Below are positions 26,133 to 58,439 of a DNA stretch of 64,000 nucleotides, in pieces. Under the pieces are notes generated by a model that saw nothing but the letters and a program-made list of their open reading frames with translations, was not told the DNA's origin and did no database searches. Within the stretch, counting starts at the first letter, position 1; each line of letters starts with the position of its first letter. Source of the stretch: Clostridiales bacterium (GTDB lineage: Bacteria; Bacillota; Peptococcia; DRI-13; UBA5745); the NCBI GenBank assembly GCA_009782505.1, contig WRIW01000001.1:1-64000 (forward strand). The letters run 5' to 3'. The translations under genes were made by a program, and so were the position numbers.

Positions 26133-26174
26133 AAAAGCAAAACTCCTGCCCCGTGAACTGCGACATAGCAATGC

Positions 26175-26428
26175 TTACAGTTCAGGAGGTCAGGGGTCCA
26201 AAGCGTGGCTATTTGTAAGCGATGGATTGAACGGCTTCGTCTGCAGATAAGCAATCGCAAGCCTGGCAAATCCGTGGGTGCGACATGGACGTCGCACCAG
26301 ACGGAACGCGACACGAAGTCGCGTTGGAGTCGCTAGGGTTTGCATCGAACGATTGCTATATCTGGCAGAAGCTGTGAACCATCGCGGCAAATAAGCGCGC
26401 TTTGGGCCCCTGACCTCCTGAACTGTAA
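26175..26428. repeat. Palindromic element A (family A/B/C), 254 bp
   Basis: A very long imperfect palindrome downstream of aspS. The outer 31 bp match with one mismatch; each end begins TTACAGTTCAGGAGGTCAGG read inward. Pairing continues inward with interruptions for about 80 bp per arm. The tip holds two perfect hairpins: stem GGTGCGAC / GTCGCACC with loop ATGGAC (26277-26298), and stem AACGCGAC / GTCGCGTT with loop ACGAA (26305-26325). It has no coding capacity and no T-run. It is homologous to element B (inverted, after the ABC-F gene) and, at its core, to element C (after ppdK). It could be a MITE-like mobile element, a structured 3' UTR or a chromosomal binding site. Confidence 0.85.
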
Positions 26429-26494: not shown

Positions 26495-26712
26495 GTAAAG
26501 GGCGTCTCCTTACACTCTGATAAACAACACACCCTGCGATGACCGTGACCGCGCCCATGTGTTTTGAGCCAACACATTTTGATTGGGAGCCTGACTCTCC
26601 GCCTGTGACTTGCATGCCTGCTGCGGGTAGGAGCGATTAAGCAGGCGGGAAGGCGCCCACCTGCGAGAGCAGGTTCAAAACAAAGGCCTTCACGGCATTG
26701 TGGGGTGATTTT
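26495..26712 (+). ncRNA. 6S RNA
   Basis: A structured non-coding stretch between aspS and tcdA, the locus that holds 6S-1 RNA (bsrA) in Bacillus subtilis. 6S RNA mimics an open promoter and binds the housekeeping RNA polymerase. A closing stem pairs CACCC..ATGACCGTG (26530-26547) with CACGGCAT..GGGTG (26691-26707) and is followed by ATTTTTATT, so it doubles as terminator. Inside are segments of 6S appearance: TTTTGAGCCAACACA, TTGGGAGCCTGAC and GCCTGCTGCGGGTAGG / GCAGGCGGG. The expected length is about 180-218 nt. The call rests on position, promoter and by-eye folding; a covariance search would settle it. Confidence 0.75.
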
Positions 26713-52196: not shown

Positions 52197-52487
52197 TTCA
52201 AGTTACAGGAGCCAAAAGCATGCCTATTTGCTTCGATGGTTCACATCTTCGGCCAGATACAGCAATCGTTTAATGCAAACCCTAGCGACTCCAACGCGAC
52301 GAACGTTACGCGCGCTTGTGCGTTTCGGTTAGCGGACTGGAGGTTCGTAGAACCTGGGCGCGTTCCGTCTGGCGCGACGTCCATGTCGCACCCACGGATT
52401 TACCAGGTTTGCGATTGCTTATCTGGCAGACGAAGCCGTTCAATCCATCGCAGCAAATAGGCATGCTTTTGGCTCCTGCAATTTGAA
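52197..52487. repeat. Palindromic element B (family A/B/C), 291 bp, inverted relative to A
   Basis: It begins at the first base after the ABC-F stop. Its ends are 34 bp inverted repeats with two mismatches (each containing GCAGGAGCC or ACAGGAGCC, then AAAAGCATGCCTATTTG). Read on the minus strand it aligns with element A along most of its length, sharing CGATGG, GCAATCG, AAATCCGTGGGTGCGAC, CCAGACGGAACGCG and GTCGCTAGGGTTTGCAT. Hairpin 1 is kept with one G-T pair (52371-52392). Hairpin 2 is replaced by a 72 bp branched insert (52293-52364) that contains AGGTTC / GAACCT. Confidence 0.85.
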
Positions 52488-57291: not shown

Positions 57292-57310
57292 AAGTTCGAT
57301 AGCGTATATT

Positions 57311-57531
57311 AAAACCGCCTGAAGCCGCTGTATATCCGGCGACTTTGGACAACGTCGTCTCAAATCACACGGACAATCAACCAAGTAAGCCGTAAAGCAG
57401 ACAGGATGTCTGCTTAGGCGGAGCACGACACGATGTCGTGTCGTAGCCGTTAGGCTTTGTACCGTGATTGACGTGATGATTTGCGGAGGTTGTCCAGGGA
57501 GCCAGATAAACAGCGGCGTTAGGCGGATTTT
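57311..57531. repeat. Palindromic element C (family A/B/C), 221 bp
   Basis: It lies between the convergent ppdK and xerD. The arms start AAAACCGCCTGAAGCCGCTG at the left and, read inward from the right, AAAATCCGCCTAACGCCGCT, and keep pairing with gaps for about 80 bp. Two tip hairpins are perfect: AAGCAGACA / TGTCTGCTT with loop GGA (57395-57415), and CACGACA / TGTCGTG with loop CGA (57424-57440). The core between and after them (GGCGGAGCACGACACGA; GTAGCCGTTAGGCTTTG) aligns with elements A and B, while the outer arms have diverged. The right end may extend transcription termination for either gene, but no T-run stands out. Confidence 0.82.
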
Positions 57532-57542
57532 GTATGCCCAAA

Positions 57543-58439
57543 TCAGGCTCTTGGGTGGCTCTTTTTGTATGCCTCCCGGAGCCGCTGATCCGTCAAATGC
57601 GTATACACCTGGGTCGTGGAGACGTCTGAGTGCCCCAACAACTCCTGCACGGAGCGGAGGTCCGCGCCGCCGATGAGCAGGCTTGTGGCGAAAGAATGCC
57701 GGAAAGTATGGGGGCTGACCTGGGCTTGTATCCCCGCCCTGCCGGCTCTATCCCTGACCATACCCCAGAGCCACTGGCGGCTCAAAGGTTTCCCCCGCCG
57801 GTTGAGGAATACGGCCCTTTCGCCGGGATCGGCCGCCGCCACCGGGCGGCAGGAGGTCAGATAATTCCTGATGGCGGTGATCGCTTTCCCGCCTATGGGT
57901 ACGATGCGCTCCTTATTGCCCTTGCCTATGCAGCGCAGATAACCCAGATCCAGGTCCAAATCCCGAAGCTGAAGGCTTAGCAGTTCCGAAGCCCTCAGGC
58001 CGCCGGCATACAGCAGCTCCAGTATAGCCATGTCGCGTATGTCCGCGAGGCTCCCGGGCGGATCCATACTGTCCAGTATCCGCTCCACATCCTCATTGGA
58101 CAAAGCCTTGGGGAGTATCTCCGCCTTTTTTGGGTTATCCATAAAGGCGGCGGGGTCGCTTGCCATCCGTTTTTCTTTCCTCAGATAATGAAAAAAGCCC
58201 CGCAAAGCGGAAAGCTTCCTGGAAATCGTGACCGGCTTGACGCCTTTGCTTCTCAAGTCATGAAGGTACGTCGTCATCAACGATAAGTCAACGGAATCCC
58301 ATCCGTCGATATTCTTTTGACTCATATAGCGGACAAAACCCATCAAATCTCCGCGATAACCCGCAGCGGTGCTTTTTGCCAAACCGATTTCCACGACCAG
58401 GTACAAGGCGTACTCTTCCACAGCCTGCTCAAAATCCAT
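57543..58439 (-). CDS. xerD: Tyrosine recombinase XerD
   Basis: XerD resolves chromosome dimers at dif together with XerC. 298 residues, normal length. The N-terminal SAM-like core-binding domain (VVEIGLAKSTAAGYRGDL) precedes the catalytic domain with Arg in AGGLRASELLSL, Lys in CIGKGNKERIVPI, His-x-x-Arg in HTFRHSFATSLL, His in LGHSDVSTTQVY and the nucleophile Tyr in the same stretch. It overlaps recN by 11 bp. Its place in the recN block and its length argue for a chromosomal XerD rather than an integron or phage integrase. Confidence 0.93.
   Translation of the reverse strand: MDFEQAVEEYALYLVVEIGLAKSTAAGYRGDLMGFVRYMSQKNIDGWDSVDLSLMTTYLHDLRSKGVKPVTISRKLSALRGFFHYLRKEKRMASDPAAFMDNPKKAEILPKALSNEDVERILDSMDPPGSLADIRDMAILELLYAGGLRASELLSLQLRDLDLDLGYLRCIGKGNKERIVPIGGKAITAIRNYLTSCRPVAAADPGERAVFLNRRGKPLSRQWLWGMVRDRAGRAGIQAQVSPHTFRHSFATSLLIGGADLRSVQELLGHSDVSTTQVYTHLTDQRLREAYKKSHPRA

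Follow-up and report, generated by a model that had tools for sequence, protein, structure and literature searches.

Elements A, B and C, three long intergenic palindromes in the analysed window (the whole stretch of 64,000 nucleotides), are probably MITE-like mobile palindromes that carry a diverged TwoAYGGAY RNA at their tip. A transposase supplied in trans would recognise the paired ends and move the DNA, so that the long arms would be mainly terminal inverted repeats. In source copies the GGA-hairpin tip would be active as RNA, most likely through CsrA binding, and loops and pairs would thus be kept while individual insertions decay. Mobility of the palindromes is well supported, and so is the homology of their tips to TwoAYGGAY (RF01731).

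The three palindromes described in an earlier sequence-only reading were found at the coordinates given there, except that C, placed by it at 57311-57531, is slightly longer (about 57304-57537). Element A (26174-26428, plus strand; CTTACAGTTC to GAACTGTAA) was delimited by its BLASTN copies, its ends, its fold and a match to RF01731. Its left terminal arm (26174-26215) pairs with the right terminal arm (26388-26428) and is 90% complementary to it; between the arms, on the same strand, lie hairpin 1 (26277-26298; GGTGCGAC-ATGGAC-GTCGCACC, with an AYGGAY loop) and hairpin 2 (26305-26325; AACGCGAC-ACGAA-GTCGCGTT, in which GGA is lost). The length of A (about 255 bp), its terminal inverted repeats and its lack of coding capacity are those of a MITE. 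Element B (52197-52487, minus strand) is an inverted A-family copy, and element C (plus strand; tip at 57387-57457) is a C-family copy with outer arms unique to its locus. The tip of B (52278-52400) has about 60 nt extra in the loop of hairpin 2, common to four A-family copies (B, L017, L024 and L061). Against dinucleotide shuffles, the folding energy of A has a z score of -15.1, that of B (folded as the minus strand) -10.7 and that of C -10.8; no shuffle was as stable as A, B or C.

Within the window, A and inverted B share repeats of 95 bp (87%) and 67 bp (96%) and therefore form one family. Element C, although it has the same tip, belongs to a second repeat family. Between A and C, five of the eight pairs of hairpin 1 differ, with both sides changed, and one pair of hairpin 2 differs, as had been reported. 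A plus-strand stop codon precedes each element (at 41 bp, 0 bp and about 12-19 bp from A, B and C, respectively), which agrees with the claim that all three lie downstream of a gene, although B is antisense to that gene. The right-hand neighbour of A is a 6S RNA (RF00013, 97 bits; 26528-26710, plus strand) that begins about 100 bp downstream of it. A plausible promoter (TTGAAC...TAGGAT) sits between the two, so the insertion of A seems to have spared it. Convergent with C is a tyrosine recombinase gene (57543-58439; Phage_integrase PF00589 with a SAM-like N-terminal domain), probably an ordinary Xer-type gene.

The host genome, a Clostridia MAG of 1.98 Mb in 73 contigs (83% complete), was searched by BLASTN. 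Element A retrieved 30 near-full copies and partial ones, and element C about nine. A covariance model of the tip (71 positions, built from A and C copies) gave 45 matches, five of them of a third type, D; one type D copy (C22:4994-5242) has A-like ends. No match to family A was found by BLASTN in 59 relatives, congeners included. When brought into one orientation, family A copies have common ends, GTTACAGTTC...GAACTGTAA, outside which similarity is fully lost. A core-less palindrome of 93 bp (G000:C37:13270-13362) has the same ends, so the ends of family A can apparently exist apart from the TwoAYGGAY tip. Six half-elements (L059, L060, L062, L064, L065 and L068) have internal deletions with matched outer arms kept or renewed, and L068 is flanked by a direct repeat, CAGGGGTGCTT.

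The 9 bp before GTTACAGTTC and the 9 bp after GAACTGTAA were compared in 24 family A copies. They are identical at 108 of 216 positions, as against a mean of 57.6 (sd 7.1) with shuffled flank partners (p < 5e-5). The identity is limited to nine positions, at least seven of which match in 9 of the 24 copies, with lower values in the other 15. As a group, family A thus has a 9-bp target-site duplication, as MITEs do. At copy A no such duplication is seen (its flanking 9-mers match at 1 of 9 positions), so the evidence for its own mobility is an empty site, located among relatives picked via aspS. In JAHDPO010000004.1 (L196, a Clostridia MAG whose AspRS is 83% identical), the 6S RNA and the ThiF gene likewise come after aspS. 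Between aspS and the 6S RNA there are about 67 bp without a palindrome, compared with 395 bp in the window, where A occupies this gap. The earlier guess at a non-autonomous mobile element is borne out by copy number, conserved ends, the 9-bp target-site duplications and this empty site. Bacterial MITEs and palindromic repeats (RUP, SPRITE, QMITE and ERIC-like) are likewise short, non-coding, multicopy and intergenic, with inverted-repeat ends and target duplication. The elements described here differ from them in having an RNA tip conserved across the phylum and in that no parent insertion sequence was found. A review describes sRNAs born from QMITEs (PMC10969869); the terms CsrA and Rfam do not occur in it.

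Several candidate sources of the transposase were considered. REP/RAYT was ruled out, as the host genome has no Y1 transposase, and the DDE_Tnp_1_6 domain of an IS1182-type parent is also absent from that genome. The DDE_Tnp_1_6 genes of two other genomes (G162 and G295) were rejected as parents since they lack element ends. When the host genome was scanned for the end pattern of family A, the pairs spanned only about 90-290 bp and solo ends were also present; no autonomous parent with the same ends was found in the 83% complete MAG.

At gathering thresholds, Rfam returned the 6S RNA alone from the window. Elements A and C score 36.1 and 33.4 bits with RF01731, below its gathering cut-off of 43 bits, and TwoAYGGAY was seen only after Rfam was run with an E-value threshold and on the sequences of relatives. 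Matches to the tip model reach other families, orders and classes, and the stronger ones are huge palindromes with two GGA hairpins; Rfam with an E-value threshold assigns five of these matches to TwoAYGGAY RNA (43-75 bits). Five sister copies in the host genome pass the RF01731 gathering score (44.7-46.9 bits). The tips in the window are accordingly read as diverged members of this class, and the guess at a structured RNA class was correct in that the elements carry TwoAYGGAY. The covariance-model check suggested in the sequence-only reading, run genome-wide, gave about 45 copies with strong covariation; it also led to an RNA class already described, an outcome which that reading had named as grounds for refutation.

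TwoAYGGAY RNA came from a screen published in 2010 (Weinberg et al., PMC2864571) and was proposed to bind CsrA from motif matches (Gardner and Eldai, PMC4333381). The elements share with it a two-hairpin tip on a covarying stem, GGA loops and occurrence in Clostridia. The unpaired tip bases CCGT, AGNCGGA and AGNCG..AGG are invariant or nearly so in A and C copies, while stem bases change in pairs. Tandem G-A pairs in one stem have been reported for TwoAYGGAY (PMC4333381); at hairpin 2 of the elements, a GG(A)/GGA internal loop was observed. The loops are ANGGAN (6 nt) or A[CG]GAN (5 nt), nearly always one of each, in either order, in family A. The window copies (ATGGAC and ACGAA in A, AGGAT and ACGAT in C) do not have the two AYGGAY loops of the class; they score below the cut-off, and one loop is usually ACGAN. 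The elements also differ from TwoAYGGAY as described in that pairing continues for 100 bp to defined ends, and in having tens of copies per genome and target duplications. The RNA class was thus already described; its travel on mobile elements has no published link in the literature searched, in which no paper was found that tests the function of TwoAYGGAY or ties it to mobility.

RF01731 was found at E <= 0.001 in 51 of 399 genomes of the phylum, many of which hold at least six copies, the number scored for each genome. In these other genomes the copies within one genome are alike and have sharp ends. The ends are CAGACTG.AGACAAA or close to it in G162, G295 and G153, and this end motif occurs 120, 53 and 20 times, respectively, compared with 5, 1 and 0 for reversed-pattern controls. 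In the same three genomes, 9 of the 13 copies tested lie between direct repeats of 20-29 bp, each a duplicated stem-loop particular to the locus, and all nine score above every one of 48 mispaired controls. T-rich sequence often adjoins one side of the duplicated stem-loops, as at intrinsic terminators. One pathway in the model proposed for IS1272 would leave a copy of the entire target stem-loop at each end (PMC5678879), as is observed for TwoAYGGAY copies of G162 and G295; IS1272 itself, however, carries a transposase gene and takes the place of the stem-loop, with no duplication (PMC5678879). Repeats of the GGGGACGGTTCT type lie beside four TwoAYGGAY elements (L007, L008, L138 and L139) in two different genomes and are possibly a second repeat family.

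In 20 full A copies, 97.8% of cells pair, and 35 of 96 pairs are changed on both sides. Double-change cells number 139 (10-24 with slid partners), and none of 500 shuffles reached any of the covariation measures. Covariation alone is no proof of RNA function, because correction between the two arms of a palindrome can also produce it. A test that distinguishes the strands was therefore applied, in which G-U and A-C mismatches are expected to be equal without RNA constraint. The ratio over all cells (111:40) is confounded by shared ancestry, and states were accordingly split into shared and private ones. G-U:A-C was 20:2 in states common to at least two copies and 17:14 in private states (Fisher p = 0.006; small numbers, with paired columns taken from a method that tolerates G-U). 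Mismatches of the 1x1 type outside the structure were checked and did not overturn this result. The near-equal private ratio makes single insertions look unconstrained. The two ratios together suggest that RNA pairing was selected in the lineages giving rise to copies, with neutrality after insertion. The earlier statement that the fold is under selection or copied as a fold is therefore right in part: the shared states, but not the private changes, bear the mark of selection for pairing on the RNA strand.

The private ratio is also what would be seen if the elements were purely DNA-level MITEs, the palindrome serving only for transposase binding, template switching or repair creating the paired changes by copying one arm onto the other, and the tip having no RNA function. 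This reading is possible, if on the unlikely side. It fits the random gene orientation seen in other genomes (below) and the arms of the C-family copies. The inner part of these copies is common, and the outer 30-60 bp are wholly different from copy to copy and yet are near-perfect inverted repeats, so that ordinary terminal repeats do not explain them; the candidate causes are arm copying and insertion within the loop of a hairpin already present. In one copy (L032, G000:C4:48356-48533) the arm extends over the final codons and the stop codon of the gene upstream, as arm copying predicts. Repair at the DNA level does not, however, predict the strand-specific excess of G-U among shared mismatches, and a purely DNA-level origin is at odds with the conservation of loops and unpaired tip bases in A, in C and in Clostridia of other families.

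One CsrA gene is present in the host genome (PF02599, 60.7 bits). CsrA was found in 49 of 51 genomes with TwoAYGGAY and in 236 of 348 others (p = 4e-6), and at genus level in 38 of 40 versus 157 of 227 (p = 0.0004), the counts of 49 and 38 being tallied by hand and relatedness being partly controlled. CsrA is common across the phylum regardless of TwoAYGGAY. The co-occurrence is in line with the published decoy proposal, with binding predicted from the motif. Stand-alone sRNA genes acting as CsrA decoys (Gardner and Eldai, PMC4333381) and multiplied by duplication would account for it, as for the ANGGA hairpin loops and the match to the published motif. Such loops are also found in the CsrA-decoy sRNAs CsrB, RsmY and RsmZ, but these are single genes with many GGA sites, while the elements are a repeated mobile palindrome with one or two. 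One loop of family A is almost always without GGA, which would make a weaker site for the CsrA dimer and argues against a simple two-site decoy. Target-site and stem-loop duplications, the empty site and sharp terminal-repeat ends mark transposition, not gene duplication, and with one GGA loop lost in many copies they leave an origin as sRNA genes improbable.

Orientation relative to genes was also recorded. In the host genome, a gene in sense orientation precedes 34 of 47 copies (p = 0.003), all nine C copies among them, a distribution that would follow if the host maintained the copies as structural 3' elements of its mRNAs, either terminators or stabilisers. In other genomes, sense and antisense orientations number 25 and 22. 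A rule of sense orientation, weak in the host genome and absent elsewhere, was rejected, and the random orientation elsewhere does not support a general role in mRNAs. Private changes that look neutral and the absence of copies from the relatives searched by BLASTN also count against 3' elements, which are very unlikely to be the explanation.

For the Clostridia at large, it is tentatively proposed that TwoAYGGAY, rather than being an ordinary sRNA, is the conserved tip of a widespread class of mobile palindromes whose insertion sites are terminator stem-loops or positions next to them, with the stem-loop being duplicated in the process. Their amplification would depend on the RNA fold, with CsrA or a different protein that binds GGA as the mediator; from species to species the paired arms would be free to diverge, and the tip would be conserved. 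Since its description in 2010, no function of TwoAYGGAY has been tested, and its role as a CsrA decoy stands as a proposal; its presence on mobile elements changes how that role should be tested. If mobile elements carry TwoAYGGAY as cargo or as a control region, then its copy number, the genomic context of the copies and their apparent covariation need to be read anew, and CsrA may regulate a transposon or be exploited by one. The stem-loop duplications offer a readable and testable record of structure-targeted transposition.
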